Shown: piece by piece, positions 988-42,639 of the stretch | Numbering within the stretch: the first letter of the stretch is position 1 | Layout of the letters: every line of letters begins with the position of its first letter | From: Siphonodentalium dalli | Lineage: Eukaryota > Mollusca > Scaphopoda > Gadilida > Siphonodentaliidae | DNA length: 64,000 bases | Reading direction: 5' to 3' | Assembly (NCBI GenBank): GCA_032622095.1 | Contig: CP136062.1 | Span: forward strand, 158,032,875 to 158,096,874 | Translations under genes and position numbers: made by a program | The notes under the pieces: generated by a model | The model's database searches: none | Told to the model about the DNA's origin: nothing | The model's input: only the letters and a program-made list of their open reading frames with translations

Positions 988-1152
988 TGAATTGTAAGTG
1001 GGGCCGCTGGGCAAGGTGGAGTCGATGTAACAAAAAATGTGGACGTGGAAGAAGGACCAGGAAAAGACGGTATACGAACGCTCGCTATGGTGGCAGAAAA
1101 TGTCCAGGCAGAGCGCTGATGTCAGGGGTGTGTAACTCCAAACCATGTCCAG
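988..1152 (+). CDS. Exon encoding one thrombospondin type 1 repeat (copy 1, intact)
   Basis: A 165-nt internal exon bounded by a TTTTCAG acceptor and a GTAATA donor. It starts with two bases of a codon and ends with one (phase 1-1), so it can be duplicated or skipped without changing frame. The 55-codon domain shows the TSR tryptophan/arginine ladder (WGRWARW, then GRRTRKRR) and six cysteines: NCKW, RCNKKCG, RKCPG, VCN and PCP. A cysteine before the first Trp, with tyrosine where group 1 TSRs have cysteine after the RxR motif, is the group 2 pattern (F-spondin, semaphorin-5 or ADAMTS style). TSRs are extracellular adhesion or matrix-binding modules, often C-mannosylated on WxxW and O-fucosylated. 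The parent gene is not identifiable from this one module. An open frame continues past the donor into intron and should be ignored. Confidence 0.88.
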
Positions 1153-2320
1153 GTAATATATTACAATACGAATCAATCTTTGAACATATTATGAGAAAGA
1201 ATCGGGCAACGCTGATGATTACGCACTTGTGTTCATTAGGGATCCGTTGTTGTTTGATACCTACAATTATTATCCGTATTCTTACACTCGGTCTGGTTGC
1301 GTGGGTTTTGAGAGCTTCCGAATGTTGTTGGTCTTACTTCTGTTCAAAATTGAGACACAATCGTGGAATGAAAGTTCAATATGGAAAATCATGAATTATT
1401 GAGTTAAGGTTGACGTCAAGTTCAACCAGCTTTCCCAAATTACTAACAAATGTTGTGCCAAAGTTGGGTTGGTTAGACACCTTCTAAACACATCATATTC
1501 CCCTGTCCCTCGTCCAGCGTACAGTGAATGTGGTTTAGTGCCAGTAAGTCTTTTGAATTCCAGCTGTGATAACTCCAAATCAAAATGTTTCGGGTTCTGT
1601 TGTGAACACACTGAAAAGTTTCATATGAGTCGAGGAACCCAACATTCAAAGCTCAGTGCTAATATATATCGATTATTGACATATATGTAGTTTATTCACC
1701 TCCAATTCCACTGGAATTCCCCAGCACGTGTCATAATAAATGTAAATAAACATCTTTCACGTGTGAGCTGCATGATATTGTTCTTGGCTTATGTTGTGTC
1801 TCAAATTATCACTGGATCAGGAATAAGTAACAAAATGTACCTGATTGCCAGCTATCAAAAGGTAGATTCGTTTTTGTTTCTGGTAGACAGTTTCGTCGGT
1901 TTTTTCCGAGAATCATATCCTATCATCACTAAAATAAATATCACATGTCCGTGTATATTTCTTTGGGAATTTTTACCAAGCTAACAAAAATTCTAGGTGT
2001 ATAAAATAAATATATATTTCAATAATCGAAACGTAATAGCTCTGAGCTTTAAAGAGTGGGTCCTTCGACTATAACAAAAAATATTTTTCCATCCCTAATG
2101 AGAAGAAATAGTAATGTATGGGTATTAAATCTGACAAGGCATTTTTAACCATGACTTACGAGCAAGCTTCAAATTATTCACCATATTAATATATCTAACA
2201 TAGATACGTTCCCACAAATTAGTCTAGACATTGATTCATGTCAATATCTCCAGATTCCAGAATCAACGAAATTTGTTAGTTAAATCTCCTGATGAACATG
2301 TTGATTCCTTCGATTTTCAG

Positions 2321-2485
2321 TGAATTGTTGGTGGGCCCGCTGGGCAGGGTGGAGTCATTGTAACAAAAAATGTGGACGTGGAAGAAGGACCAGGAAAAGA
2401 CGGTATACGAAACCTCGCTATAGTGGCAGAAAATGTCCAGGCAAAGCGTTGGTGTCAGGGGTGTGTAACTCCAAACCATGTCCAG
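2321..2485 (+). CDS. Exon encoding one thrombospondin type 1 repeat (copy 2, intact)
   Basis: A second 165-nt, phase 1-1 TSR exon with the same acceptor and donor as copy 1. It differs at several codons: NCWWARW replaces NCKWGRW, and AGWSHC replaces ARWSRC. All six group 2 cysteines are kept and the reading frame is open throughout. The upstream intron matches the one before copy 1. The downstream intron (from GTAATA to about 3690) is almost identical to those after copies 3-5. Copy 2 therefore sits at the boundary between the older 1.33-kb units and the younger 2.43-kb dimers and probably marks an unequal-crossover point. Spliced to copy 1, the reading frame is maintained through a Val codon. 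Confidence 0.88.
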
Positions 2486-4746
2486 GTAATATATTACAAT
2501 ACGAATTAATCTTTAAACATATTATGAGAAAGAATCGGGCAACAACGATAATTACACATATGTGTTCATTACGGTTCCGTTGTCGTTTGATACCTAAAGT
2601 TATTATCCGTTTTCTTATACTCGGTCTGGTTGCGTCGGTTACGAGAGCTTCCAAATGTTATTGGTATTACTTCTGTTCACAATTGAGACATAATCGTGGC
2701 ATGAAAGTTCAATGCGGCAAATCATGAATTATTGAGTTAAGTTTAACGTCAAGTTCAACCAGCATTCCCAAATTACTAACAAATGTTTTGACAAAGTTGG
2801 GTGGATTAGACACCTTCCAAACACATCATATTCCCATGTCCCTCGACCAGCGTACTGTGAATGTAGTTTAGTGCCAGTAAGTCTTTTGAATTCCAGCTGT
2901 GATAATTGAGATATGTGTGCTGTGAAATATTTGTCGCATCATAGAGATACCTAGTCGATTTCATCACCTCCAAATTAACATTTTTCGGGTTCTGTTGAGA
3001 AACGTTTCATTTGAGTCGAGGAACCCAGCATTCAAAGCTCAGTGCTATTAGATATCTATCATTGACATCTATGTAGTTTATTCATCTCAAATTCCACTGG
3101 AATTCCCCAGCAAGTGTCAAAATAAATGTAAATAAAACATATGCATGTGGGATATTGTACTTGTTTTATGATATGCCTAAAAATGGTCACTGGATCAGGA
3201 ATAATTAAACAAATGTACCCGATTACCAGCCATCAAAATGTAGTGTCGCTTTTGTTTCTGGTAGACATTTTCGTCGGCTTTTTTCCGAGAATCATTTCCT
3301 ATCACCACTAAATGAAAATCACATATCCGTATATATTTCCGTTGGAATTTTTTACCAAGCTAATACAACTTTGAGGTTTATATAATAAATACATTTCATT
3401 AATCGGATACGTAATAGCTCTTAGCTTTGAAGGGCGAGTCCTTCGACAATAACAAGAAATATTTGTTCACCCCTAATGAGAAGGAAAAGTAATATAAGTG
3501 TACTAAATCAGACAAAGCACCTTTAACCATGACCCATGAGCAAGTTTCACATTTTTAACCATATTAACAAATCTAGCATAGTTACCTTCCCACAAATTAT
3601 TCTAGACATTGATTCATGTCAATGTCTCCAGATTACAGAATCAAAGAAATAAGTTAGTTAAATCTCGCGATGACAATGTTGATTCCTTCGATTTGTTCTT
3701 ACTTCTGTTCAAAATTGAGACATAATCGTGGCATGAAAGTTCAATACGGAAAATCATGAATTATTGAGTTAAGGTTGGTGTCAAGTTCAACCAGCATTCC
3801 CAGATTACTAACAAAATTAATGTTGTGCCAAAGTTGGGTGGGTTAGACTCTTACCAAACACATCTATCCCCATGTCCCTCGACCAGCGTACTGTGCATGT
3901 AGTTTAGTGTGTTTTGAATTCCAGCTGTGATAACTGAGATCTGTATGCTGTGAAATATTTGTCGCTTCATCGTCATTTTAGAGATACTTAGTCCGATATT
4001 ATCACCTCCAATTTAATATGTTTCGGGTTCTGTTGTGAAAACACTGAAAAGTATGATATGTGTGGAGGAACCCAACATTCAAAGCTCAGAGTTATTATAT
4101 ATCGATTATTGACATCTATGTAGTTTATTCACCTCAAACTCCACTGGAATTCCCCAGCAATTATCAAAATATATGTAAATGATACATATTCACGTGGGAT
4201 CTTGTACTTGTTTTATAATGTGCCTAAAAATTATCACTGGATCAGGAATAATTGAACAAATGTACCCGATTGCCAGCCATCAAAAGGTAGTGTCGCTTTT
4301 GTTTCTGGTAGACATTTTCGTCGGCTTTTTTCCGACAATCATTTCCGATCACCACTAAATGAAACATCACATATCCGTATATATTTCCGTTGGAATTTTT
4401 ACCAAGCTAATAACAAGTTGAGGTGTATATAATAAATACATTTCATTAAACGGACACCTAATAGCTCTTAGCTTTGAAGGGTGAGTCCTTCGACAATAAC
4501 AAGAAATATTTGTTCACCCCTAATGAGAAGGAATACTAATATAAGGGTACTAAATCTTGCAACGCACCTTTAACCATGACCCATGAGCAAGTTTCACATT
4601 ATTAACCATATTAACAAATCTAACATAGTTACCTTCCCACAAATTATTCTAGACATTGATTCATGTCAATGTTTCCCCTATTCCAGAATCAACGAAATAT
4701 GTTAGTTAAATCTCCCGATGACCATGTTAATTGCTTCGATTTTCAG
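2486..4746 (+). other. Intron containing exon-less array unit 1
   Basis: There is no exon between the copy 2 donor and the copy 3 acceptor. Near 3691-3700 the usual pre-exon sequence (GATTCCTTCGATTT) runs straight into sequence that lies about 345 bases further downstream in other units. The deletion therefore removed the acceptor AG, the whole TSR exon and the start of the next intron. Flanking unit sequence is otherwise recognisable on both sides. Confidence 0.85.
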
Positions 4747-4918
4747 TGAATGGTAAGTGGACCCCCTGGGCACGGTGGAGTCGATGTAACAAAAAATGTG
4801 GACGTGGAAGAAGGATCAGGAAAAGACGGTTGTACGAACCCCGCCCCACGCTACGGTGGCAGAAGATGTCCAGGCAAAGCGCTGGTGTCAGGGGTGTGTA
4901 ACTCCAAACCATGTCCAG
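4747..4918 (+). pseudogene. TSR exon copy 3, frameshifted, cysteine pattern changed
   Basis: Homologous to copies 1-2 with intact acceptor and donor, but 172 nt long (165 + 6 + 1). The six extra bases are an in-frame insertion in the loop after the RxR motif (adding two residues, around P-A-P). The extra single base is a T in the codon following AAAAGACGG, and it breaks the frame so that a stop arrives before the donor. Independently of the frameshift, the codon for the first cysteine is now GGT (Gly), and the codon after RKRR was evidently TGT (Cys) rather than TAT (Tyr), as still readable in copy 5. The tryptophan ladder is WTPWARW. If the single T is a sequencing error, this is a functional exon; otherwise it is a dead copy. 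Confidence 0.8.
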
Positions 4919-7179
4919 GTAATATATTACAATACGAATTAATCTTTAAACATATTATGAGAAAGAATCGGGCAACAACGATAATTACACATATGTGTTC
5001 ATTACGGTTCCGTTGTCGTTTGATACCTAAAGTTATTATCCGTTTTCTTATACTCGGTCTGGTTGCGTCGGTTACGAGAGCTTCCAAATGTTATTGGTAT
5101 TACTTCTGTTCACAATTGAGACATAATCGTGGCATGAAAGTTCAATGCGGCAAATCATGAATTATTGAGTTAAGTTTAACGTCAAGTTCAACCAGCATTC
5201 CCAAATTACTAACAAATGTTTTGACAAAGTTGGGTGGATTAGACACCTTCCAAACACATCATATTCCCATGTCCCTCGACCAGCGTACTGTGAATGTAGT
5301 TTAGTGCCAGTAAGTCTTTTGAATTCCAGCTGTGATAATTGAGATATGTGTGCTGTGAAATATTTGTCGCATCATAGAGATACCTAGTCGATTTCATCAC
5401 CTCCAAATTAACATTTTTCGGGTTCTGTTGAGAAAAGTTTCATTTGAGTCGAGGAACCCAGCATTCAAAGCTCAGTGCTATTAGATATCGATCATTGACA
5501 TCTATGTAGTTTATTCATCTCAAATTCCACTGGAATTCCCCAGCAAGTGTCAAAATAAATGTAAATAAAACATATGCATGTGGGATATTGTACTTGTTTT
5601 ATGATATGCCTAAAAATGGTCACTGGATCAGGAATAATTAAACAAATGTACCCGATTACCAGCCATCAAAATGTAGTGTCGCTTTTGTTTCTGGTAGACA
5701 TTTTCGTCGGCTTTTTTCCGAGAATCATTTCCTATCACCACTAAATGAAAATCACATATCCGTATATATTTCCGTTGGAATTTTTTACCAAGCTAATACA
5801 ACTTTGAGGTTTATATAATAAATACATTTCATTAATCGGATACGTAAAAGCTCTTAGCTTTGAAGGGCGAGTCCTTCGACAATAACAAGAAATATTTGTT
5901 CACCCCTAATGAGAAGGAAAAGTAATATAAGTGTACTAAATCAGACAAAGCACCTTTAACCATGACCCATGAGCAAGTTTCACATTTTTAACCATATTAA
6001 CAAATCTAGCATAGTTACCTTCCCACAAATTATTCTAGACATTGATTCATGTCAATGTCTCCAGATTACAGAATCAAAGAAATAAGTTAGTTAAATCTCG
6101 CGATGACAATGTTGATTCCTTCGATTTGTTCTTACTACTGTTCAAAATTGAGACATAATCGTGGCATGAAAGTTCAATACGGAAAATCATGAATTATTGA
6201 GTTAAGGTTGGTGTCAAGTTCAACCAGCATTCCCAGATTACTAACAAAATTAATGTTGTGCCAAAGTTGGGTGGGTTAGACTCTTACCAAACACATCTAT
6301 CCCCATGTCCCTCGACCAGCGTACTGTGCATGTAGTTTAGTGTGTTTTGAATTCCAGCTGTGATAACTGAGATCTGTATGCTGTGAAATATTTGTCGCTT
6401 CATCGTCATTTTAGAGATACTTAGTCCGATATTATCACCTCCAATTTAATATGTTTCGGGTTCTGTTGTGAAAACACTGAAAAGTATGATATGTGTGGAG
6501 GAACCCAACATTCAAAGCTCAGAGTTATTATATATCGATTATTGACATCTATGTAGTTTATTCACCTCAAACTCCACTGGAATTCCCCAGCAATTATCAA
6601 AATATATGTAAATGATACATATTCACGTGGGATCTTGTACTTGTTTTATAATGTGCCTAAAAATTATCACTGGATCAGGAATAATTGAACAAATGTACCC
6701 GATTGCCAGCCATCAAAAGGTAGTGTCGCTTTTGTTTCTGGTAGACATTTTCGTCGGCTTTTTTCCGACAATCATTTCCGATCACCACTAAATGAAACAT
6801 CACATATCCGTATATATTTCCGTTGGAATTTTTACCAAGCTAATAACAAGTTGAGGTGTATATAATAAATACATTTCATTAAACGGACACCTAATAGCTC
6901 TTAGCTTTGAAGGGTGAGTCCTTCGACAATAACAAGAAATATTTGTTCACCCCTAATGAGAAGGAATACTAATATAAGGGTACTAAATCTTGCAACGCAC
7001 CTTTAACCATGACCCATGAGCAAGTTTCACATTATTAACCATATTAACAAATCTAACATAGTTACCTTCCCACAAATTATTCTAGACATTGATTCATGTC
7101 AATGTTTCCCCTATTCCAGAATCAACGAAATATGTTAGTTAAATCTCCCGATGACCATGTTAATTGCTTCGATTTTCAG
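4919..7179 (+). other. Intron containing exon-less array unit 2
   Basis: This repeats the arrangement of 2486-4746 almost base for base. The exon-deletion junction is near 6124-6133, with the same breakpoint. The shared breakpoint shows that the deletion happened once and was then amplified as part of the 2.43-kb dimer. Confidence 0.85.
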
Positions 7180-7351
7180 TGAATGGTAAGTGGACCCCCT
7201 GGGCACGGTGGAGTCGATGTAACAAAAAATGTGGACGTGGAAGAAGGATCAGGGAAAAGACGGTGTACGAACCCCGCCCCACGCTACGGTGGCAGAAGAT
7301 GTCCAGGCAAAGCGCTGGTGTCAGGGGTGTGTAACTCCAAACCATGTCCAG
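7180..7351 (+). pseudogene. TSR exon copy 4, frameshifted, cysteine pattern changed
   Basis: Nearly identical to copy 3 and the same length (172 nt), with splice sites retained. The frame-breaking base is in a different place: an extra G in ATCAGGGAAAAG where copies 3 and 5 have ATCAGGAAAAG. Copy 4 lacks copy 3's extra T, so the TGT (Cys) codon following RKRR is readable once the G run is discounted. The first cysteine is Gly as in copies 3 and 5. The lesion is an independent one-base homopolymer change in an otherwise unmutated copy, so either very recent decay or an uncorrected long-read error would explain it. Confidence 0.8.
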
Positions 7352-9613
7352 GTAATATATTACAATACGAATTAATCTTTAAACATATTATGAGAAAGAA
7401 TCGGGCAACAACGATAATTACACATATGTGTTCATTACGGTTCCGTTGTCGTTTGATACCTAAAGTTATTATCCGTTTTCTTATACTCGGTCTGGTTGCG
7501 TCGGTTACGAGAGCTTCCAAATGTTATTGGTATTACTTCTGTTCACAATTGAGACATAATCGTGGCATGAAAGTTCAATGCGGCAAATCATGAATTATTG
7601 AGTTAAGTTTAACGTCAAGTTCAACCAGCATTCCCAAATTACTAACAAATGTTTTGACAAAGTTGGGTGGATTAGACACCTTCCAAACACATCATATTCC
7701 ATGTCCCTCGACCAGCGTACTGTGAATGTAGTTTAGTGCCAGTAAGTCTTTTGAATTCCAGCTGTGATAATTGAGATATGTGTGCTGTGAAATATTTGTC
7801 GCATCATAGAGATACCTAGTCGATTTCATCACCTCCAAATTAACATTTTTCGGGTTCTGTTGAGAAAAGTTTCATTTGAGTCGAGGAACCCAGCATTCAA
7901 AGCTCAGTGCTATTAGATATCGATCATTGACATCTATGTAGTTTATTCATCTCAAATTCCACTGGAATTCCCCCAGCAAGTGTCAAAATAAATGTAAATA
8001 AAACATATGCATGTGGGATATTGTACTTGTTTTATGATATGCCTAAAAATGGTCACTGGATCAGGAATAATTAAACAAATGTACCCGATTACCAGCCATC
8101 AAAATGTAGTGTCGCTTTTGTTTCTGGTAGACATTTTCGTCGGCTTTTTTCCGAGAATCATTTCCTATCACCACTAAATGAAAATCACATATCCGTATAT
8201 ATTTCCGTTGGAATTTTTTACCAAGCTAATACAACTTTGAGGTTTATATAATAAATACATTTCATTAATCGGATACGTAATAGCTCTTAGCTTTGAAGGG
8301 CGAGTCCTTCGACAATAACAAGAAATATTTGTTCACCCCTAATGAGAAGGAAAAGTAATATAAGTGTACTAAATCAGACAAAGCACCTTTAACCATGACC
8401 CATGAGCAAGTTTCACATTTTTAACCATATTAACAAATCTAGCATAGTTACCTTCCCACAAATTATTCTAGACATTGATTCATGTCAATGTCTCCAGATT
8501 ACAGAATCAAAGAAATAAGTTAGTTAAATCTCGCGATGACAATGTTGATTCCTTCGATTTGTTCTTACTTCTGTTCAAAATTGAGACATAATCGTGGCAT
8601 GAAAGTTCAATACGGAAAATCATGAATTATTGAGTTAAGGTTGGTGTCAAGTTCAACCAGCATTCCCAGATTACTAACAAAATTAATGTTGTGCCAAAGT
8701 TGGGTGGGTTAGACTCTTACCAAACACATCTATCCCCATGTCCCTCGACCAGCGTACTGTGCATGTAGTTTAGTGTGTTTTGAATTCCAGCTGTGATAAC
8801 TGAGATCTGTATGCTGTGAAATATTTGTCGCTTCATCGTCATTTTAGAGATACTTAGTCCGATATTATCACCTCCAATTTAATATGTTTCGGGTTCTGTT
8901 GTGAAAACACTGAAAAGTATGATATGTGTGGAGGAACCCAACATTCAAAGCTCAGAGTTATTATATATCGATTATTGACATCTATGTAGTTTATTCACCT
9001 CAAACTCCACTGGAATTCCCCAGCAATTATCAAAATATATGTAAATGATACATATTCACGTGGGATCTTGTACTTGTTTTATAATGTGCCTAAAAATTAT
9101 CACTGGATCAGGAATAATTGAACAAATGTACCCGATTGCCAGCCATCAAAAGGTAGTGTCGCTTTTGTTTCTGGTAGACATTTTCGTCGGCTTTTTTTCC
9201 GACAATCATTTCCGATCACCACTAAATGAAACATCACATATCCGTATATATTTCCGTTGGAATTTTTACCAAGCTAATAACAAGTTGAGGTGTATATAAT
9301 AAATACATTTCATTAAACGGACACCTAATAGCTCTTAGCTTTGAAGGGTGAGTCCTTCGACAATAACAAGAAATATTTGTTCACCCCTAATGAGAAGGAA
9401 TACTAATATAAGGGTACTAAATCTTGCAACGCACCTTTAACCATGACCCATGAGCAAGTTTCACATTATTAACCATATTAACAAATCTAACATAGTTACC
9501 TTCCCACAAATTATTCTAGACATTGATTCATGTCAATGTTTCCCCTATTCCAGAATCAACGAAATATGTTAGTTAAATCTCCCGATGACCATGTTAATTG
9601 CTTCGATTTTCAG
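7352..9613 (+). other. Intron containing exon-less array unit 3
   Basis: Third copy of the exon-deleted unit, with its junction near 8557-8566. It differs from units 1-2 mainly by homopolymer changes, for example one fewer C near 7700, an extra C near 7975 and an extra T near 9196. Confidence 0.85.
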
Positions 9614-9785
9614 TGAATGGTAAGTGGACCCCCTGGGCACGGTGGAGTCGATGTAACAAAAAATGTGGACGTGGAAGAAGGATCAGGAAAAGACGGTGTA
9701 CGAACCCCGCCCCACGCTACGGTGGCAGAAGATGTCCAGGCAAAGCGCTGGTGTCAGGGGGTGTGTAACTCCAAACCATGTCCAG
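9614..9785 (+). pseudogene. TSR exon copy 5, late frameshift, group 1-like cysteine pattern
   Basis: A 172-nt copy whose frame stays open through most of the domain. It clearly reads WTPWARW, CNKKCGRG, RKRRCTN, PAPRYGG and RRCPG. An extra G in TCAGGGGG then shifts the frame just before the last two cysteines and creates a stop. In this copy the swap is directly visible: the N-terminal Cys codon is Gly, and the Tyr after RKRR is Cys. Six cysteines would remain if the extra G were absent, now in group 1 (thrombospondin-1 type) arrangement. The copy lies 370 bases from the assembly gap, so the array probably continues into missing sequence. Confidence 0.8.
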
Positions 9786-10154
9786 GTAATATATTACAAT
9801 ACGAATTAATCTTTAAACATATTATGAGAAAGAATCGGGGCAACAACGATAATTACACATATGTGTTCATTACGGTTCCGTTGTCGTTTGATACCTAAAG
9901 TTATTATCCGTTTTCTTATACTCGGTCTGGTTGCGTTGGTTACGAGAGCTTCCAAATGTTATTGGTATTACTTCTGTTCACAATTGAGACATAATCGTGG
10001 CATGAAAGTTCAATGCGGCAAATCATGAATTATTGAGTTAAGTTTAACGTCAAGTTCAACCAGCATTCCCAAATTACTAACAAATGTTTTGACAAAGTTG
10101 GGTGGATTAGACACCTTCCAAACACATCATATACCCATGTCCCTCGACCAGCGT

Positions 10155-10254
10155 NNNNNNNNNNNNNNNNNNNNNNNNNNNNNNNNNNNNNNNNNNNNNN
10201 NNNNNNNNNNNNNNNNNNNNNNNNNNNNNNNNNNNNNNNNNNNNNNNNNNNNNN
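10155..10254. other. Assembly gap (100 N)
   Basis: Exactly 100 consecutive N, a conventional placeholder for a gap of unknown size. The TSR array stops on the left, and a different repeat (the interior of a foldback MITE) begins on the right. Confidence 0.98.
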
Positions 10255-10625
10255 AGTGATTAGATATCGATTTTTGAAATCTATTAATTTTCGGAGATCT
10301 GTACCACAAGCTAGCAGAACCACGTGCTCAAAACGGTCAAATTGCTGGTGTAAGACCCATAACTCTAAAATGAAGTGCTTAGATTAACAATAATAACCAC
10401 TTGATTTTAGAGTTATTCATCTTACACCCACAATGTGTCTGTTTTGATCACGTGGTTCTGCCAACTTGTGGGCTATATCTCTGAAAATTAATATGTTTCA
10501 AAAATCGATATCTAATCACCTTGAGCTTTGATGGGTGGGTTCCTCTACTCGAATCAAATAATTGTTATCCACAAAGCCAAAGAAATAGTAATATAGGACC
10601 CTCTGGTCGGATTGAGTACCTTTAA
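10255..10625 (+). mobile_element. TTAA foldback MITE, right part (left end in the gap)
   Basis: Corresponds to the right three quarters of the complete element at 14970-15447 and ends with GAGTACCTTTAA. The left terminus is lost in the adjacent N run. Non-coding. Confidence 0.85.
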
Positions 10626-11645
10626 GTGATCTATCTCCAATTTTTCATTTTTGTGGGCAATCGAGTTTAAAGTTTAAAGTTCACATGTTCTCATTCTGTT
10701 TTGGAAGATAGTACACAGCGGGTATGATAGCTGGTGTAAAAATACTATTATATGACGAGTTTCGAGACAAAACATATGATATCTTGGGTGTATAATCACG
10801 AAAAAACACTTTGAATATAGAACAAAATTGTGTAAAAAAGTTCTGTTTGTATTCCCTACTAGAGTGGTTTTCGTGTTTTTAAATCAGATAAACGTGCAAA
10901 AAACAAAAATCACGCCATTTTCTGAGTTATTTTAACAAATAATCATCCTAGAAATAAAATGTTCACAGTTCACACCTACGAATTAGAAAGCATTATCTTC
11001 AACTAGAATGCACTCACTTGAGCTGCCTATACTTGCGCCCATCACACATTTGGCATGTTGTGTGGTGTCTTGCCAACAACAGTTTGAACCACGGGTGCTG
11101 GCCCCTCGTTTGAGAGATCGATAACAAAAATCTAGATATCAAATCTCTGTTCATCCATCGCTGAAATAGTTGTGTGTACGGACATAATATCCCTGTTATG
11201 ATGATATGGGCCCCAGTTGGCTGCATATTAGGAACGATAACTCTATCCGATCTAATTACAGGTGAGACATATTGGTAGTGTTTTTTACCTGTTAACCAAC
11301 TATCAGATTTAGGCCACTCCAATGCATGGTGTATTATCTACATGTATATTACGTGAGGACCTTGATGGGGATAGCTTCAGTCTTGAATGTTAAAGTGACA
11401 CACTGCGCTCGCTGAACGAAGTCTCTCCATGTGAACGATGTATTATCTACATTTATCACATAATTTGGCCATAAAAGCAGTTTCATAATTATCGGTAATA
11501 CTGAGACACGTTTAATATCAGCGCGTGCGATGACGTCACGGCGTTCTTCAAATAACTTGCGATCGCTGTAGTTTATGATTGTTGTTTTCGATGAATATTG
11601 CGCGTTGCTACGGGTTTATTTGATCATGTGATAAAAGGTATCACA

Positions 11646-11774
11646 CACTCGTCCTATTTTATACGTAATTTATCAACCTCGTCCTCTAAATTCTATTTGA
11701 GCCTCGGTAAACCTCGGCTCAAATCGAATTTAGTGAACTCGGTTGATAAATTACGTATAAAATAGAAACTCATG
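11646..11774. repeat. Foldback (inverted repeat), copy A
   Basis: Two arms of about 55-60 bases pair around a short loop. Key matching blocks are CTATTTTATACGTAATTTAT on the left and its complement on the right, with CTCAAAT/ATTTGAG nearer the centre. No ORF. Probably a MITE remnant. Confidence 0.8.
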
Positions 11775-11835
11775 TGAGATCCTCTATGTATATCACGTGA
11801 TGACCTCGATGAACGATGGGCAGCTTCCGCCCTGA

Positions 11836-11995
11836 ATATTAAAGGGACAAAATGCACTCAGTATTTGAATATTAAAGGGACAATAGGCTCTCACGGGGGA
11901 TGATTGTTAAAGTGACACAATGCACTCACTATGGATGAATGTTAAAGTGACACTAGGCACTCACTGTGGGATAATGTTAAAGTGACATTCGCATT
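11836..11995 (+). repeat. Short tandem repeat around TTAAAGTGACA (copy A)
   Basis: About four degenerate units of 40-50 bases, each carrying GTTAAAGTGACA or ATTAAAGGGACA followed by TGCACTCACT-like sequence. No coding potential. Confidence 0.75.
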
Positions 11996-12104
11996 GAAAA
12001 CTTCAAAAACTTCAAACGCGTTGACGTGCGCGTTACTAGGACTGACCCGCAGTGTATAAGGGTATACGTCTTGGATGGTAATTTGGCGCCTATAAAAATG
12101 ACTA

Positions 12105-12258
12105 AGTTTTTTGAAATTTGTGAAGTTTTTGAAATATTTGAAATTTTTGAAGTTTTTTGAATTTTTGAATTTTTTTTTAATTTTTGAAGTTTTTGAAGTT
12201 TTTGAAATTTTTGAACTTTTTGAAATCTTTGAAGTTTTTGAAATTTTTGAAATTTTCA
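12105..12258 (+). repeat. Microsatellite, period 9, TTTTTGAAR-type (copy A)
   Basis: Runs of TTTTTGAAG and TTTTTGAAA. Open frames on both strands (Lys/Phe/Leu-rich) are only translations of this low-complexity tract. The array is longer here than in copy B. Confidence 0.85.
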
Positions 12259-12650
12259 ATATTGTTCATTTACGAACGATTTATTACCAAAATACTTTAC
12301 ATTTTGTACTTCCGGTATGACATAACATATTCCCGGAAGGACAGACAAAGATCCGGACAGAAAACATTACTTGCGTCCAGCATGGACTGGCGCAAGTAAC
12401 TAGTCATTTCGCTGGCACTCTGCCAAATTCGGTACCTTTGCTTTCTATTGAAGGTGAGAGGTATAACATTTTAACTCTGAAATTTTGTTAATCACGTGGT
12501 ATAAAATAAATAGTTTCATTGGTACACAGTGTAGATAGAAAAGTGAGTGTTTGAGTTGGAACAGATTTACACAGCCTCTCATTCAAATTTGAAATTTGTT
12601 AGACACGATATCTGGCCGTTTATAACGTAGCGCATATAATAAAAAGAAAA

Positions 12651-14969: not shown

Positions 14970-15447
14970 TTAAAGGTACTCAATCCGATCAGAGGGTCCT
15001 ATATTACTATTTATTTGGCTTTAGGGGTAAAAAACTATTTGATTCGAGTCGAGGAACACACCCATCAAAGCTCAGAGTGATTAGATATCGATTTTTGAAA
15101 TCTATTAATTTTCGGAGATCTGTCCCACAAGCTAGCAGAACCACGTGCTCAAAACGGACAAATTGCTGGTGTAAGACGGATAACTCTAAAATGAAGTGCT
15201 TACTATTAACAATAATAACCACTTGATTTTAGAGTTATTCATCTTACACCCACAATGTGTCTGTTTTGATCACGTGGTTCTGCCAACTTGTGGGCTATAT
15301 CTCTGAAAATTAATATGTTTCAAAAATCGATATCTAATCACCTTGAGCTTTGATGGGTGGGTTCCTCGACTCGAATCAAATAATTGTTATCCCCAAAGCC
15401 AAAGAAATAGTAATATAGGACCCTCTGATCGGATTGAGTACCTTTAA
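14970..15447. mobile_element. Complete foldback MITE with TTAA ends
   Basis: A 478-bp element bounded by TTAA on both sides. It starts TTAAAGGTACTCAATCCGAT and ends with the reverse complement. The two halves are inverted repeats of each other over more than 200 bases, around a centre near 15210. TTAA target use with a purine-G start fits Kolobok-type elements and is also compatible with piggyBac-type elements. There is no transposase, so it is non-autonomous. Partial copies are at 10255-10625, 13740-13783 and, degenerate, 25560-25735. Fragments are also present in every TSR intron at the left end. Confidence 0.88.
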
Positions 15448-16467
15448 GTGCTCTATCTCCAATTTTTCATTTTTGTGGGCAATCGAGTTTAAAGTTTAAA
15501 GTTCACATGTTCTCATTCTGTTTTGGAAGATAGTACACAGCGGGTATGATAGCTGGTGTAAAAATACTATTATATGACGAGTTTCGAGACAAAACATATG
15601 ATATCTTGGGTGTATAATCACGAAAAAACACTTTGAATATAGAACAAAATTGTGTAAAAAAGTTCTGTTTGTATTCCCTACTAGAGTGGTTTTCGTGTTT
15701 TTAAATCAGATAAACGTGCAAAAAACCCAAAATCACGCCATTTTCTGAGTTATTTTAACAAATAATCATCCTAGAAATAAAATGTTCACAGTTCACACCT
15801 ACGAATTAGAAAGCATTATCTTCAACTAGAATGCACTCACTGGAGCTGCCTATACTTGCGCCCATCAAACATTTGGCATGTTGTGTGGTGTCTTGCCAAC
15901 AACAGTTTGAACCACGGGTGCTGGCCCCTCGTTTGAGAGATCGATAACAAAAATCTAGATATCAAATCTCTGTTCATCCATCGCTGAAATAGTTGTGTGT
16001 ACGGACATAATATCCCTGTTATGATGATATGGGCCCCAGTTGATGCATATTAGGAACGATAACACTATCCGATCTAATTACAGGTGAGACATATTGGTAG
16101 TGTTTTTTACCTGTTAACCAACTATCAGATTTAGGCCACTCCAATGCATGGTGTATTATCTACATGTATATTACGTGAGGACATTGATGGGGATAGCTTC
16201 AGTCTTGAATGTTAAAGTGACACACTGCGCTCGCTGAACGAAGTCTCTCCATGTGAACGATGTATTATCTACATTTATCACTTAATTTGGCCATAAAAGC
16301 AGTTTCATAATTATCGGTAATACTGAGACACGTTTAATATCAGCGCGTGCGATGACGTCACGGCGTTCTTCAAATAACTTGCGATCGCTGTAGTTTATGA
16401 TTGTTGTTTTCGATGAATATTGCGCGTTGCTACGGGTTTATTTGATCATGTGATAAAAGGTATCACA

Positions 16468-16596
16468 CACTCGTCCTATTTTATACGTAATTTATCAACC
16501 TCGTCCTCTAAATTATATTTGAGCCTCGGTAAACCTCGGCTCAAATCGAATTTAGTGAACTCGGTTGATAAATTACGTATAAAATAGAAACTCATG
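16468..16596. repeat. Foldback (inverted repeat), copy B
   Basis: Copy of the foldback at 11646-11774, with one arm substitution (TTATATTTGAG for TTCTATTTGAG). Confidence 0.8.
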
Positions 16597-16657
16597 TGAG
16601 ATCCTCTATGTATATCACGTGATGACCTCGATGAACGATGGGCAGCTTCCGCCCTGA

Positions 16658-16812
16658 ATATTAAAGGGACAAAATGCACTCAGTATTTGAATATTAAAGG
16701 GACAATATGCTCTCACGGGGGATGATTGTTAAAGTGACACAATGCACTCACTATGGATGAATGTTAAAGTGACACTAGGCACTCACTGTGGGATAATGTT
16801 AAAGTGACATTC
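16658..16812 (+). repeat. Short tandem repeat around TTAAAGTGACA (copy B)
   Basis: Duplicate of 11836-11995, with the same number of degenerate units. Confidence 0.75.
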
Positions 16813-16923
16813 GCATTGAAAACTTCAAAAACTTCAAACGCGTTGACGTGCGCGTTACTAGGACTGAGCCGCAGTGTATAAGGGTATACGTCTTGGATGG
16901 TAATTTGGCGCCTATAAAAATGA

Positions 16924-17060
16924 CTAAGTTTTTTGAAATTTGTGAAGTTTTTGAAATATTTGAAATTTTTGAAGTTTTTGAAATTTTTGAAGTTTTTTTA
17001 ATTTTTGAAGTTTTTGAAATTTTTTAACTTTTTGAAATCTTTGAAATTTTTGAAATTTTC
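16924..17060 (+). repeat. Microsatellite, period 9 (copy B, contracted)
   Basis: The same TTTTTGAAR tract as 12105-12258 but shorter, the main length difference between the two large repeats. Confidence 0.85.
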
Positions 17061-17654
17061 AATATTGTTCATTTATGAACGATTTATTACCAAAATACTT
17101 TACATTTTGTACTTCCGGTATGACATAACATATTCCCGGAAGGACAGACAAAGATCCGGACAGAAAACATTACTTGCGTCCAGCATGGACTGGCGCAAGT
17201 AACTAGTCATTTCGCTGGCACTCTGCGAAATTCGGTACCTTTGCTTTCTATTGAAGGTGAGAGGTATAACATTTTAACTCTGAAATTTTGTTAATCACGT
17301 GGTATAAAATAAATAGTTTCATTGGTACACAGTGTAGATAGAAAAGTGAGTGTTTGAGTTGGAACAGATTTACACAGCCTCTCATTCAAATTTGATATTT
17401 GTTAGACACGATATCTGGTGATTTTCGGACAGGAAATCCCGCACCGACCATTTTGGAGATAGAACAGTTTAGTTCTGACGCGACGATTCGCACGAGAGAC
17501 GCCGTCCAATATTGTGGCGGTGCGTCGCCCAGAATATCTCGTTTAAAACGTGCTGTGCTGGGCGAAAAAATCACAATATCAAACTTGGTGCACATGATTG
17601 AAAATATGCGGATTACAAGTCACATTTTGGTGTGCGTGTCAGTTCTATTTAATT

Positions 17655-18197: not shown

Positions 18198-19703
18198 AAA
18201 CGACAAAAAAAATCCGTATATAGGGCCGGGGTGGGTGGGTGGTCTAGAGGCCGAAAAAATCGTGCTTGTAATTTTTTTCCAAAATGGGTTTTTTTTCAAA
18301 CAATTTACAAGTACTGACCATGTAATGTTGTTTGTAAGCATGTTAGTACCATGCTTGTTGGTATAGGGCTATATAGGCAGCTATAGTGACTCTTTAGCCT
18401 CATATTTAGCAACATTCTGGATTTCACAGGATCCCGGCCCACTTCACAGTGGACCACCGTAATATATAGCATTCAGGAAACTTATGATCAACGGAAGAAA
18501 TATTTAGTAACAAAATTAATATTTTACCTGAATAAAAGTAACAAAACAAAAAAACTGTATCACAAAGTAGATACTACATGTACATGGCGAATACTCAATG
18601 ATGACTAGATATCATTAACCTGATTGTTGCATAACATGAAATTGAAAAGGGTATCTCATAAAGTTATAATATCGGGGGGAGGGTATAATAACCATATATC
18701 TATGTGTATACCTAATCAAAAACAATTCCCCTCCCCCACCCCACCCCGTGGATAAGACTAAAGAGTTTTTTGGGCATGCACAACTAATTGTGGAACCCCT
18801 GACCTGTTTACCACTATTGACACTGGCCAGTGTTCTCTGTCAGACACAACACACTCGATATATTAATGCTATAATGTGGTCTAGGACGATTTGTGACATA
18901 TAGTGTACCTACACAATGCTTTATTATTCTTGTTATATACTGAAAACTCCAGGAAACACCTGGAAATACAGTTTATTTTTCGTTTTTCTGATCTGTGTTT
19001 ACCAATTAATCATGTTATTGCTTGAGTCTTAATGGTACACAGCAAGAGTTTGCACCAAAAAAGGATAGTGGAATGGGATTGAAAGGCAGTTAACACAGTT
19101 ATTGAAGAACGGCTAAAAAAAAACCTCTGAAATTTTGATAAAAACATGAGAAAGGGGGGTTGGGTCCCCAAAATTTTGCACAAATTCGGTGGTGGGTCCC
19201 TTGGGGTCGGAAAAAAAAATTTTGGGCCATATATGTGCAATTATTTTCCAGACTCCTCCCTGGTCTGACACTCCCGAACGGCCTTATGTAGTTCGGAAAA
19301 TTTAAGCGACCTGGGAGAGGACTCAATAAGCTTGTTGTCTCATCCCTTTCCAATCACCCATAGTCATCCATTGGCATTTTTGTAAAATATTCATCTTGTT
19401 TTGTATTGGGAATAAATGTTGTTTACACCAAATCTTTAAAGCAACCCTAACTTTTATACCAGAAGTGGTCATTTTTAGACTTCTATCATAATTAATGGAA
19501 TCATATAAGTACTGAATAAAACTTTGGTCACATACTAGTAACTCCACTTAATCAAGTAGCATAGTTGCCCGATTCATTAGATTTCCGTTAGATTTGTGTT
19601 AAATGTCAATCATTCCACTATTTTGATCATAAATTTAATATGAATCATACGTGACACGTAGTGGAGCAACCACACATGCTGTATCCCGAATTTCCTTTTC
19701 ATC
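18198..19703. other. No gene seen; G-rich repeat fragments
   Basis: Contains two fragments of a G-rich motif (GGTGGGTGG near 18231; GGGTTGGGTCCCC and GGTGGGTCCC near 19157-19200, each followed by a GGAAAAAA-like run). Related fragments occur near 49405, 49620 and 50735-50840. Otherwise only short open frames. Confidence 0.5.
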
Positions 19704-22700
19704 ACCAACGCAGGTCCCGCCATAAAATAATTAATGCTGCACCAGCACAGCTGCCGTCATGAAATGGTTAATGTTGCACCAATGCAGCGCCTGTCATAAA
19801 AGGGTTAATGCTGCAATAGCACAGCTCCCGTCATGAAAGGGTTAATGTTCCACCAGCACAGCTCCCGTCATGAAAGGGTTAATGATGCACAAACGCAGCT
19901 CCCACCATGGAAGGGTTAATGCTGCACCAGCACAGCTACCCGCCATGAAAGGGTTAATGCCTACACCAGCACATATCCCATCATAAAATAATTAATGCTG
20001 CACCAACGCAGCTCCCGTCATGAAATAATTAATGCTGCACCAGCGTAGATCCCGTCATGAAAGGGTTAATGCTGCACCAGCGCAGCTCCCGTCATGAAAG
20101 GGTTAATGCTGCACCAACGCAGCTCCCATCATAAAAAGGTAAAAGCTGCAACAGCACAGCTCCCTTTATGAAAGAATTAATGCTGCCCCAACGCAGCTCC
20201 CGTCATGAAAGGGTAATGGCGCACCAACGCAACTCCCATCATAAAAGAATAAATGCTGCACCAGCACAGCTCCAATCATAAAATAATTAATGCTGCACCA
20301 GCACAGTTCCTTTCATGAAAGGGTTAATGCTGCACCAACGCAGCTCCCGCCATGAAAGGGTTAATGCTGCTGCACCAACGCAGCTCCCATCATAAACTAA
20401 TTAACGCTGGACAAGCACAGCTCCCGTCATGAATGAATTAATGCTGCCCCAACGCAGCTCCCCTCATGAAAGAATTAATGCTGCACCAGCACAGCTCCCG
20501 TCATAAAAAGGTTAATGTTGCACCAGCACAGCTCCCAGTCATGAAAGGGTTAATGCTGCACTAGCACAGCTCCAGTTATAAAAGGGTTAATGCTGCACCA
20601 GCACAGATCCCATCATAAAATAATTAATGCTGCACCAACGCAGCTCCCGTCATGAAATAATTAATGCTGCACCAGCGTAGCTCCCTTCATGCAAGGGTTA
20701 ATGCTGCACCAGCGCAGCCCCCGTCATGAAAGGGTTAATGCTGCACCAACGCAGCTCCCATCATAAACAGGTAAAAGCTGCACCAGCACAGCTCCCGTCA
20801 TGAAATAATTAATGCTGCCCCAACGCAGCTCCCGTCATGAAAGGGTAATGGTGCACCAACGCAACTCCCATCATAAAAGAATAAATGCTGCACAACTCCA
20901 ATCATAAAATAATTAATGCTGCACCAGCACAGTTCCTTTCATGAAAGGGTTAATGCTGCACCAACGCAGCTCCCGCCATGAAAGGGTAATGCTGCTGCAC
21001 CAACGCAGCTCCCATCATAAAATAATTAACGCTGGACAAGCACAGCTCCCGTCATGAATGAATTAATGCTGCCCCAACGCAGCTCCCGTCATGAAAGAAT
21101 TAATGCTGTACCAGCACAGCTCCCATCACAAAAAGGTTAATGTTGCACCAGCACAGCTCCCAGTCATGAAAGGGTTAATGCTGCACTAGCACAGCTCCAG
21201 TTATAAAAGGGTTAATGCTGCACCAGCACAGATCCCATCATAAACTAATTAATGCCGCAACAACCCAGCTCCCGTCATGAAAGGGTTAATGCTGCACCAA
21301 CGCAGCTCCCATCATAAACAGGTAAAAGCTGCACCAGCACAGCTCCCGTCATGAAATAATTAATGCTGCCCCAACGCAGCTCCCGTCATGAAAGGGTAAT
21401 GGTGCACCAACGCAACTCCCATCATAAAAGAATAAATGCTGCACAACTCCAATCATAAAATAATTAATGCTGCACCAGCTCAGTTCCTTTCATGAAAGGG
21501 TTAATGCTGCACCAACGCAGCTCCCGCCATGAAAGGGTTAATGCTGCTGCACCAACGCAGCTCCCATCATAAAATAATTAACGCTGGACAAGCACAGCTC
21601 CCGTCATGAATGAATTAATGCTGCCCCAACGCAGCTCCCGTCATGAAAGAATTAATGCTGTACCAGCACAGCTCCCATCACAAAAAGGTTAATGTTGCAC
21701 CAGCACAGCTCCCAGTCATGAAAGGGTTAATGCTGCACTAGCACAGCTCCAGTTATAAAAGGGTTAATGCTGCACCAGCACAGATCCCATCATAAACTAA
21801 TTAATGCCGCAACAACCCAGCTCCCGTCATGAAAGGGTTAATGCTGCACCAGCGCAGCTCCCATCATGAAAGGGTTAATGCTGGACCAGCGCAGCTCCCA
21901 ATCATGAAATGGTTAATGCTGCACCAGCACAAATCCCATCATAAAATAATTAATGCTGCATCAACGCAGCTCCCGTCGTGAAATAATTAATGCTGCACCA
22001 GCGCAGCACCGGTCATGAACGGGTTAATGCTGCGCCAACACAGCCCCCGTCATGAAAGGGTTAATGCTGCACCAGCACAGATCACATCATAAAATAATTA
22101 ATGCTGCACCAACGCAGCTCCCGTCATGAAATAATTAATGCTGCCCCAACGCAGCTCCCGTCATAAAAGGGTTAATGATGCACCAACGCAACTCCCATCA
22201 TAAAAGACTCCCATCATAAATAATTAATACTGCACCAACGCAGCTCCCGTCATGAAATGGGTAAAGCTGCACCAGCACAGATCCCATCATAAAATAATTA
22301 ATGCTGCACCAACGCAGCTCCCGTCATGAATTAATTAATGTTGTACCAACGCAGGTCCCGTCTTGAAATGGTTAATGCTGCACCAGCGCAGCTCCCGCCA
22401 TGAACGGGTTAAGGCTGCACCAACGAAGGCCCCGTCATAAAAAAGGTTAATGCTGTACCAGCACGGCTCCCATCATAAAACAATGAATGCTGCGCCAGCA
22501 CAGATCCCATCATAAAAAAATAATGCTGCACCAGCACAGTTCCTTTCATGAAAGGGTTAATGCTGCACCAACGCAGCTCCCATCATAAAATAATTCATGC
22601 TGCACCAACGCAGCTCCAGTCATGAAATAATTAATGCTGCACCAGCGCAGCTCCCGTCATGAAAGGGTAAATGCTGCACCAGCGCAGCTCCCATCATGAA

Positions 22701-23169
22701 TGGGTTAATGCTGCACAAACGCAGCTCCCGTCATGAAATAATTAATGCTGCACCAGCGCATCTGCCGTCATGAAATGGTTAATGCTGCACCAGCGCAGCC
22801 CATCATAAGTTGGTTCATGTTGCACCAACGCAGCTCCCATCATAAAAAAATGTTAATGCTGCACCAGAACAGCTCCCATTATAAAAAAATTAATGTTGCA
22901 CCAGCACAGTTCCTTTCATGAAAAGGTTAATGCTGCACCAGCACAGCTCCCGTCATGAAAAGGTTAATGTTGCACCAACGCAACTCCCGTCACGAAAGGG
23001 TTATTGCTGCACCAGCACAGCTCCCCGTCATGAAAGGGTTAATGCTGCACCAGCACAGCTCCCGTCGTGAAATGGTTAATGCTGCACCAGCACAGCTCCC
23101 GTAATAAAAACATTAATGCTGCACCAGCGCATCTCCCATCGTGAAAGAGTTAATGCTGCACATACGCAG
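19704..23169 (+). repeat. 37-bp minisatellite, about 90 copies
   Basis: Unit approximately TGCACCAGCACAGCTCCCGT followed by CATGAAAGGGTTAATGC, 37 bases. Variants include AACGCAGC for AGCACAGC and AATAATT for AAGGGTT. The array is continuous for about 3.46 kb with occasional 36-38 base units, 3-base CTG insertions and truncated units. Higher-order repetition is visible: the variant unit ACGCTGGACAAG recurs near 20403, 21029 and 21580, embedded in the same order of neighbouring variants. The array does not encode a conserved frame. Confidence 0.95.
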
Positions 23170-24460: not shown

Positions 24461-26361
24461 CGGAGTGTACATGTATTTAATCCGATTAGTAGATTTTTTG
24501 TTTTCTCGTGTGGTGAATGATAAACTTTCAGTGATTAGCCGCAGTTGTTGTAATGATTTGAAGGATTAGTTGTTTCAACGGAATTCTGAGGTGGTGCTTT
24601 CCTGAAATCTTGAAGGCATTATGATTAATTAATTTCCATAATCGGTGGTGAATGAAACCTTATCGGAAATTATTTCATAATGACTCTCGAGATTGTTTGT
24701 AAATCATTCAGTGTTCAGCCGCCGTATGTTGGCGTCTGTTAGTCAATTGCATACCTCTATTACAATACAAATTTGAACAAATAACAAAGAAAATATACAT
24801 GCCAGCCGAAAACAATTATAATGCCGTATAAGAGAACCGATAAAATAACAGTTTAGTGTATTTGCCGCGAGCTGGCAACACGTCAACATAATAACATTTC
24901 AATCGTCAAGGCGTTTGTCATTTTGTTGGCAGTGGGTGTTTGAATATAACAAATAAAATATTGGTGTATCAATATAATGGCCGTTGCATGTTTGGCGATG
25001 AACCTTTCAACCAATCGGAACGCATGCGCCCTTTGTGAACACACCATGCGTGAGTACATATTTCATAATTATCATAACTTTAGTATGGCACGTCCGATTT
25101 AAAAAAATGTGTTCATATGCTTTCTCACCAAGCACATACTATACACATATACACAAAAAATACATATACTCAACTATATATATATATATACACATAGCCA
25201 TTACCTATATAAACATTTGTCATTAAAGCTCCAATATATTTTATATATGCGTAATAATATGAGTTAGGTGGCGTTACCATCTATGACTATGTTTTCTTGT
25301 CATCATTTGTCTGCCTTATCCTGATATATTCACTGTTTTTGTTGACACAATCCGATTCGATGGTCTCCATATCATCAGATCCCAACAACAACACCATTTC
25401 TTGAAATGCCGCTTCAGTTTCAAAAACGATTAATTGACAAAAAATAATGCTACCACTGTCAACTAGTATAAGATTGCCCAAATTTTTTAAATATCAACAT
25501 TTTGCTGAACGTAATTTGGTATTGAGAGTATGTCTGTGGCATTCATCGAATATTTGTTAGGCCGCCAAATATTCCAGGTGGTGAAAATTAAAAGATATAA
25601 AATATCGGTATCTGATAACTCTGAGCTTTGATGGTGGGTTCCTCGATTCGCATCAAATATCCCCCAACTCGAAGCCAATGAAATAGTAACTTAATTGCGT
25701 TAATTTGGAGTGTGCATCTTTAAACTACGGGGTTGGTTCTCCCTTACCCTTATGTAAAAACAAACATTGGACGGGTGGGTTGTTTCCGACTAATTAGCAT
25801 GGAATGTTCGTCACACCAGCTGCATGGTTCATCCAAATAATCCAACACGTCAGCGGTGCCAAAAGCGGAAAACAAATCCACACCATAATTAGCAAAGGGG
25901 ATGAGAAGATAATACCTATAATACCGTGACCACATCATAATCCCTCTCCACACAGACATGATGCTGTCCACTTCGAGTATATATGGTCACCAACTTAGGC
26001 TACCATGCAGAGGTTATGTCGAGGAGAGCTGGCTAGCTACAATCACAATGTGATCCTCCGACAGTTTCTGTAGATTCTCGGACAAAGTTAACCCACAATG
26101 CAGTAGCCATTCAGGTATGTTTTTGAAGATAGAACTATATTTTAACCCTGTGTATCCTAAATTGATTATCCCACCCACTTATCAAAATATACATTGGAAT
26201 GTTATATTATCCTTTTGGAGGGATGTTAAGGATATATGCGCAGATGAAAACTTATGATCTGAACATTTCCTATTGGCTCTACTCGTCAATGAGTGATGTG
26301 AAACACTCCGGTATGGTGATCAAATAGAAATGGAGAATAATCTTCTTCAAAGTAGTAATCA
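24461..26361. other. Long stretch without recognisable gene; microsatellite and MITE arm
   Basis: Holds an imperfect TA/CATA microsatellite at about 25140-25215 and one degenerate arm of the TTAA MITE at about 25560-25735 (GAGCTTTGATGGTGGGTTCC, GAAATAGTAA). The rest has only short open frames without domain or splice context. Confidence 0.6.
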
Positions 26362-26945
26362 CGGTGGGGAATCACGTGGTTGCGAGTTGATGAGTACCAC
26401 GATTTTAAATGGCGGCGGATAGAGAAAATATGCCAAGAAACGACGAAAAAGGTAATAAACTACGATATGACATATTACATATTATGTTGGCAGCGCCGAG
26501 CATATGCTACACTATTTGTTATACAAGATGATACCTCATATGTGTCCAAACTCACATTTGTTTGCTCAAACATTCTGACCAAATGCCGTCAGTTGGACGA
26601 TTTTTCACGATGTTTTCACGATGTGTTTACTGGTGTATTCCACGAACATTCTATATTTTCATGCATTTTCTCTAGTTGGGCCAAAACTATTGTTACTGGC
26701 GTTATGTTTACTGAAAGAAAGCACATTTAGTCGGCAATATATTGATCCTTCTTTTAAAGAAAATATAATTTTCCTTGTGAATCATAGCTTTTTCATTAGT
26801 AGTGAGTGTACATGCACCACAATTGAGTGATGAGTTACCACGAACTTTTTCGGAATCGATTGAATAAATTGAGGACAGCAAACAAGTCAGCCGGCTTATA
26901 GCGATATTTACAAAAGGAGTACATCTAATTAGGTCTGAACCGTCC
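26362..26945 (+). repeat. About 585-bp segment duplicated in inverted orientation at 44623-45209
   Basis: Nearly identical, apart from scattered substitutions, to the reverse complement of 44623-45209. It starts at CACGGTGGGGAATCACGTGG and ends around TTAGGTCTGAACCGTCC. It includes the first coding exon and the proximal upstream sequence of the zinc-finger gene, and the start of its first intron. Confidence 0.9.
26409..26451 (+). CDS. C2H2 zinc-finger gene, exon 1 (start codon)
   Basis: ATGGCGGCGG begins a 14-codon stretch (MAADRENMPRNDEK) plus one base, ending at a good AAAAAG|GTAATA donor. The exon ends in phase 1, and exon 2 (27636) supplies exactly the two bases needed to make a GAT codon and continue in frame. 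An ATGGCGGC start is typical of a metazoan initiator context, and the short acidic/basic leader carries no domain. An upstream 5' UTR and promoter are presumed in 26362-26408 but cannot be delimited. An inverted copy of this exon with its donor is preserved near 45120-45162. Confidence 0.7.
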
Positions 26946-26990
26946 AAACTGTACATGTACCCTAGATGTAAAGAATATATGGTCAAGTTC

Positions 26991-37084: not shown

Positions 37085-37228
37085 CTGGGTACGATATCGG
37101 CAGGAAGTGATCCCGGTTGTTCGAGGCATATTCTGCAATTCTCGTGGTCCGGTCCCGCGTCGTCTGTTTGTTCGGCTTCCTCAACCAAGTTGTATACCGT
37201 TCCTCGTTTGGTGCAGAAGGAAAACCTC
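37085..37228 (-). CDS. Possible internal exon of the same minus-strand gene
   Basis: A 144-nt minus-strand interval bounded by a pyrimidine-rich acceptor (CTCTTTTATATATAG) and a consensus donor (CCCAG|GTAAGT). In phase 2 it reads RFSFCTKRGTVYNLV, an acidic stretch (EEAEQTDDAGPD) and ENCRICLEQPGS, a CxxC-bearing sequence. Phase 1 is also open and basic. The length is a multiple of three, so it is a symmetric exon. Earlier exons on the right (37229-38600) were not recognised. The CRIC motif recalls zinc-binding knuckles, but the evidence is too thin to name a domain. Confidence 0.45.
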
Positions 37229-42367: not shown

Positions 42368-42639
42368 TTCTATGTATAGTATAAAAACAGCCCACGTCGT
42401 AACATTCGTAAATTGTATGGTTCCAATGATAACAAAACAGACCACACGGTTAATATAAAACAATTTAATGGTAAACAATCTGAAACGGTTATTTGTTCAC
42501 ATTTGGACAACGTATTTTCAATAAAGTTAGAACTGATGTACACATCCATTAATTTCAGACGTTGAAAGAAGATAGCAAACCATTTATTAAAATCAAATGC
42601 AGTCAATTTGCATGGTATTTTGGTTGAATTATATTCAGT

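Follow-up and report, generated by a model that had tools for sequence, protein, structure and literature searches.

A candidate disulfide-class switch in a tandem array of thrombospondin repeat exons from the scaphopod Siphonodentalium dalli

The first 10.15 kb of a 64-kb stretch of the genome of the scaphopod mollusc Siphonodentalium dalli (assembly GCA_032622095.1, contig CP136062.1, positions 158,032,875 to 158,096,874; this whole stretch is called the window below) hold, on the + strand, a tandem array of five closely related exons that encode thrombospondin type 1 repeats (TSRs). Two cysteine layouts occur in this array, that of group 2 TSRs in copies 1 and 2 and that of group 1 TSRs in copies 3–5, and the two types of copy are 76–80% identical in protein sequence. 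We give a probability slightly above one half (about 0.54) to the reading that a group 1-type ancestral exon underwent a switch of disulfide class in this array, by the steps set out below. More tentatively, the array may record a change of disulfide topology that took place in nature and fairly recently, through two cysteine changes that compensate each other and a loop deletion; both forms would then persist next to each other in the array and possibly within a single protein.

The division of TSRs into two groups reportedly originates with Tan et al. in 2002. The two groups are treated as separate disulfide architectures, and across 15 cross-class pairs (five group 1 by three group 2 domains) identity is at most 41%. 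In the available text of two accounts (PMC11990869, PMC6096484), group 1 TSRs have the disulfides C1–C5, C2–C6 and C3–C4, and group 2 TSRs C1–C4, C2–C5 and C3–C6. Because it is the fourth cysteine that has another partner in each pairing while the other two bonds stay in place, the logic of a single re-routed bond is sound; the pairings of the array copies themselves are predicted from their residues. Both classes are already known, and what is new here is so close a pair across them.

Two cysteine layouts in one exon array

In copies 1 and 2 a Cys precedes the first Trp, at the position that it has in F-spondin, C7 and C9, and Tyr stands where group 1 TSRs have their third cysteine (C3), so that C3 is absent. 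Copy 1 reads NCKWGRWARWSRCNKKCGRGRRTRKRRYTN--ARYGGRKC... and copy 2 reads NCWWARWAGWSHC...RKRRYTK--PRYSGRKC.... The cysteines of both fall at residues 2, 13, 17, 38, 48 and 53, compared with 2, 13, 16, 37, 47 and 53 in complement C7, and the N-terminal one lies 11 positions ahead of the next, as in all three group 2 comparators (F-spondin, C7 and C9). Copies 3–5 have Gly before the first Trp and no N-terminal Cys, carry C3 after R-x-R-x and have a loop longer by two residues; these features are read in a single frame in copy 5 (NGKWTPWARWSRCNKKCGRGRRIRKRRCTNPAPRYGGRRC...) and across two frames in copies 3 and 4. In copy 5 the cysteines that can be read (13, 17, 28 and 40) are spaced as in thrombospondin-1 TSR3. 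The exons are as follows.

988–1152, + strand: TSR exon copy 1 (165 nt, phase 1-1), of the group 2 type, with an intact frame, six Cys (the first at residue 2), Tyr in place of C3 and a short loop
2321–2485, + strand: TSR exon copy 2 (165 nt, phase 1-1), also of the group 2 type, with an intact frame and 83% protein identity to copy 1
4747–4918, + strand: TSR exon copy 3 (172 nt), with residues of the group 1 type; an extra T directly precedes the C3 codon TGT and breaks the frame in the assembly
7180–7351, + strand: TSR exon copy 4 (172 nt), with residues of the group 1 type; an extra G at about 7254 breaks the frame in the assembly
9614–9785, + strand: TSR exon copy 5; 172 nt, group 1-like, one frame to residue 48 (9616–9759), extra G in the G run starting at 9757; last two Cys out of frame

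Every exon is preceded by TTTTCAG and followed by GTAATA, the edge bases being kept in five of five, and the introns of the array are 1–2 kb long. As the exons are of phase 1-1, starting and ending after the first base of a codon, an intact copy could be added or skipped without a frame shift.

An earlier reading of the same DNA, made from its letters (the original prediction), had drawn attention to this paired cysteine difference, and the diagnostic residues that it named are present: NCKW or NCWW together with RKRRY in exons 1 and 2, and AAT GGT (N-G), TGT after RKRR and CCC GCC in exons 3–5. The limits that it gave the array fit a first exon beginning at 988 and a last one ending at 9785, its argument that one disulfide would be re-routed accords with the published pairings, in which the classes differ only in what the fourth cysteine pairs with, and its assignment of copies 1 and 2 to group 2 and of copies 3–5 to group 1 agrees with solved TSRs and mostly with Pfam. 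The constant count of six cysteines holds for copies 1 and 2, which have all six in one open frame; for copies 3–5, each with one extra base, it holds only if those bases are set aside.

Pfam agrees mildly with the two-class assignment. The scan with TSP_1 (PF00090, cut-off 21.6 bits) covered copies 1, 2 and 5 and the 32-residue tail of copy 4, leaving copy 3 aside; copy 1 (37.4 bits), copy 2 (37.7) and copy 5 to residue 48 (38.7) are above the cut-off, and the tail of copy 4 alone (16.5) is under it. Over like stretches of 46, 46 and 48 residues, the spondin-type profile (PF19028) and TSP_1 give 36.5 versus 32.0 bits for copy 1, 33.6 versus 32.9 for copy 2 and 34.5 versus 38.7 for copy 5, which is a spondin-type lead of +4.5, +0.7 and −4.2 bits, respectively.

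Direction of change and competing histories

The long loop of copies 3–5 contains two added codons, CCC GCC (P-A), which complete the motif C-x-x-P-x-P. This motif is found in 8 of the 13 group 1-type TSR stretches compared and in copy 5, in none of the three group 2 stretches and in neither copy 1 nor copy 2, and the loop of UNC5B shares all six residues (CTNPAP) with copies 3–5. A 6-bp deletion, with four equivalent placements, turns the long loop into a short one, after which a few further substitutions are needed to reach copies 1 and 2. When four short forms were given a 6-nt tandem duplication, none recreated the long loop, the best leaving three mismatches. Since a long loop of this kind is common among group 1 TSRs, the two-residue insertion that the original prediction saw in copies 3–5 is more plausibly a loss from copies 1 and 2: the two codons are there, and the proposed direction from group 2 to group 1 is probably reversed. 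Judged from these loops and from the best solved matches of copy 1, which are of group 1 despite its group 2 layout, group 1 is probably the ancestral type and copies 1 and 2 are probably derived.

We propose that the array grew by unequal exchange, within an animal-like gene, from a single exon coding for a TSR and the introns around it. The ancestral exon would have been of the group 1 type of copies 3–5, with Gly before the first Trp, Cys at C3 and a C-x-N-P-x-P loop. In the lineage of copies 1 and 2, GGT would have become TGT, placing a new Cys at the group 2 position; TGT would have become TAT, removing C3; and a 6-bp in-frame deletion would have shortened the loop. In any protein that the array may produce, the predicted outcome is that there are still six cysteines and that two disulfides out of three are preserved, the fourth Cys pairing with the Cys of the N-terminal strand instead of C3.

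Selection is not shown for this change: the argument for it is the pairing of the two cysteine changes, and the ratio of nonsynonymous to synonymous substitution rates (dN/dS) gives no sign of purifying selection. To simulate drift, we put the 48 readable codons of copy 5 through 200,000 runs of random substitution. With 8, 12 and 16 substitutions, a Cys was gained at the group 2 position and C3 lost in the same run in 0.15%, 0.36% and 0.60% of cases (the observed difference from copy 1 is 13), and the paired swap with no other Cys change or stop arose in 0.06–0.09%; the test was framed after the pattern had been seen, although where the group 2 position lies is dictated by the known class. 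Between copies 1 and 2 there are 10.5 nonsynonymous to 1.5 synonymous differences, and diversifying selection is not claimed from this ratio (P = 0.50 under neutrality).

Copies 3–5 are carried by larger repeat units, as follows.

2486–4918, + strand: first 2,433-bp unit; an exonless half, then a half with exon copy 3
4919–7351, + strand: second 2,433-bp unit; exon copy 4 at its end
7352–9785, + strand: third unit, 2,434 bp; exon copy 5 at its end
9786–10154, + strand: start of a further unit, 369 bp, interrupted by a 100-N gap at 10155–10254

The three units are almost identical, so copies 3–5 amount to one evolutionary observation and not three. They differ by four substitutions and six one-base insertions or deletions (indels), all of which are run-length changes. 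This indel to substitution ratio of 6:4 compares with 8:40 in two other near-identical repeat pairs of the window aligned by BLAST (p = 0.009); in a second count, with one pair aligned by MAFFT, the comparison repeats gave 6:41 (p = 0.003). The excess suggests sequence error in an unresolved tandem repeat. Three of the six indels lie within the 171-bp exon, a stretch that makes up 7% of the unit (p = 0.006 if indels were evenly spread). Such clustering is not accounted for by random error and would be in keeping with decay. We infer that the extra bases in copies 3–5 are mostly sequence errors, and they could be decay.

That clustering is one of several observations that weigh against a class switch in this array. 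Copies 3, 4 and 5 each have their own single extra base at a different place, which at each site is missing from the other two; none of the three encodes a complete TSR as assembled, and copy 5, the only one with both diagnostic codons in one frame, loses that frame before its last two cysteines. The dN/dS values (Nei–Gojobori) are 2.0 for copies 1 and 2, 0.99 for copies 1 and 5 and 1.03 for copies 2 and 5, none of which differs from neutral, and between copies 1 and 3 divergence in the exon (13 of 165 positions) is not significantly lower than in the flanks (86 of 697; p = 0.13). The spondin-type cut-off of 41 bits is reached by no copy (full-length copies 1 and 2 score 40.2 and 37.5), and copy 2 at full length is tied between TSP_1 (37.7) and this profile (37.5). 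With the diagnostic columns excluded, copy 1 scores 1.92 per column against C7 and 1.71 against thrombospondin-1 TSR3, and the classes are not separated. C-x-x-P-x-P is missing from 5 of the 13 group 1-type domains, and vasculostatin-120, a group 1 TSR, has a short loop; loop length is therefore no class marker, and the loop evidence on direction is not decisive. AlphaFold, run on copy 1 with copy 2, returned helices with a mean pLDDT (predicted local distance difference test) of 44, meaningless as a model.

If the array were dead or dispensable, copies 3–5 would be pseudo-exons and their paired cysteine difference from copies 1 and 2 would be drift. We consider such neutral decay rather unlikely. 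It would account for the separate frameshift in each of copies 3–5, for the indels crowded into the exon, for the loss of the exon from the other half-unit and for a cross-class dN/dS close to 1, but copies 1 and 2 are intact with six cysteines, the splice-edge bases are kept in every copy and the simulated paired change came about in only 0.15–0.60% of runs, and the run-length nature of all six indels and their 6:4 ratio, above that of the other window repeats, suggest sequence error. The opposite direction, in which a group 2 ancestor gave rise to copies 3–5 by losing its N-terminal Cys and gaining C3 and two loop residues, as the original prediction had it, is less probable still. The copies are about equally near both classes outside the diagnostic columns, and the short loop, being present in vasculostatin-120, could be old; yet this history needs a 6-nt insertion, accounted for by no simple tandem duplication in the forms tried, that remade a common group 1 loop at thrombospondin-1 spacing and with all six residues of the UNC5B loop.

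Least probable of these histories, at long odds, is that gene conversion imported one type from a TSR exon outside the window, the switch having taken place elsewhere and earlier. The units are mosaic in a way that would suit it: copies 1 and 2 are near-identical just upstream of the exon (2 differences in 347 positions) and differ at 12 of 165 in the exon and 36 of 350 after it, and between copies 2 and 3 there are 50 differences in the 348 positions ahead of the exon, 16 in the 165 of the exon and none in the 350 that follow its end. Boundaries at or in the exon are the expected trace of conversion, and both shifts in divergence could have arisen through unequal exchange or through conversion at the exons. 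However, only 13 substitutions separate copies 1 and 3 within the exon, so a donor would have been a close member of the same family. The same counts had raised the idea that exon 2 mutates faster than its near-identical flanks, which was dropped, as the exon lies within the older, diverged part of both pairwise comparisons.

On our preferred reading, a switch from a group 1-type ancestor, the original prediction's 'captured evolutionary switch' stays possible, although dN/dS shows no coding constraint on either type of copy and the group 1-type copies are all frame-broken. Intermediates with five or seven cysteines, which by its account would show the order of events, were not seen; a six-frame search of the window with a profile derived from the copies gave no further TSR exon, only the five known places and a chance match at 37139–37201 (E = 6). 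If the switch is real, a class-spanning pair at 76–80% identity would show that a short distance is enough for TSR class to change, and would make it possible to test directly whether a five- or seven-cysteine intermediate folds; if the array is dead, the case loses that value. The array would be a useful natural example of a disulfide-class switch if copies 3–5 prove intact, and is a modest lead as assembled. As far as titles and the openings of abstracts tell, none of the papers listed by the literature searches, in a collection that mostly excluded subscription papers, deals with a change between TSR classes within one gene.

Extent of the array and other features of the window

The array continues past both of its ends, the first bases of the window matching the intron that follows the known exons and the 3′ side running into the N gap; five copies are therefore a minimum. 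Each of the three units also has an exonless first half, in which pre-exon intron sequence up to TTCGATTT is fused, at 3693, 6126 and 8559, to post-exon sequence, so that the exon and both splice edges are gone. A 29-base core of the exon had no exact match in collections of prokaryote genomes or viruses, as expected for an animal sequence.

Directly at the edge of the N gap begins a direct duplication of about 2.36 kb (10255–12615 and 15076–17418, 98% identity), which may be an assembly or haplotype duplication. Further along are a 3.5-kb tandem array of about 93 copies of a 37-bp unit (19703–23161) and an inverted pair of about 600 bp (26349–26946 and 44623–45219, 97.5% identity), perhaps a mobile element. 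The window also contains a transposase-like open reading frame (ORF) with a CENP-B N-terminal DNA-binding domain (42155–42496, − strand, 32.9 bits) and a C2H2 zinc-finger ORF. Along with the symmetric exons and the intron lengths, these two ORFs suggest animal DNA. Nothing was found in the window with Rfam at gathering scores.

Comparison with known thrombospondin repeats

Among single-domain matches to solved structures, the best of copy 1 are of group 1, namely vasculostatin-120 (36.3 bits) and a one-TSR chain of thrombospondin-1 (34.9), with C7 at 25.8 and F-spondin at 24.8. Group 1 TSRs such as thrombospondin-1 TSR2 and TSR3, properdin and UNC5B resemble copies 3–5 in W-x-x-W-x-x-W, in C3 after R-x-R-x and in the C-x-N-P-x-P loop. 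They differ from them in being unbroken where copies 3–5 are frame-broken as assembled, and from the whole array at the O-fucose site. This site is given as C-x-x-S/T-C in the available text of PMC9198472; all five copies have CNKKC, with Lys in place of Ser/Thr, so O-fucosylation of these TSRs would not be expected there.

Group 2 TSRs (F-spondin and the N-terminal TSRs of C7 and C9) share with copies 1 and 2 the N-terminal Cys and the absence of C3. The distance from the third Cys to C4 is 21 positions in copies 1 and 2, C7 and C9 and 20 in F-spondin, whereas the T-N or T-K that copies 1 and 2 retain next to the C3 position, on its C-terminal side, is replaced by other residues in all three of these chains. 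Overall, copies 1 and 2 match group 1 domains best. The short-looped group 1 TSR of vasculostatin-120 has 21 positions from C2 to C4, the same spacing as in copies 1 and 2, but unlike them it has C3 and lacks the N-terminal Cys. Both layouts also occur together in complement C7, which has an N-terminal TSR of the group 2 type and a second TSR with the loop CNNPPP; the two TSRs of C7 are far diverged, whereas the two types in the S. dalli array are 76–80% identical and lie in one tandem exon array.

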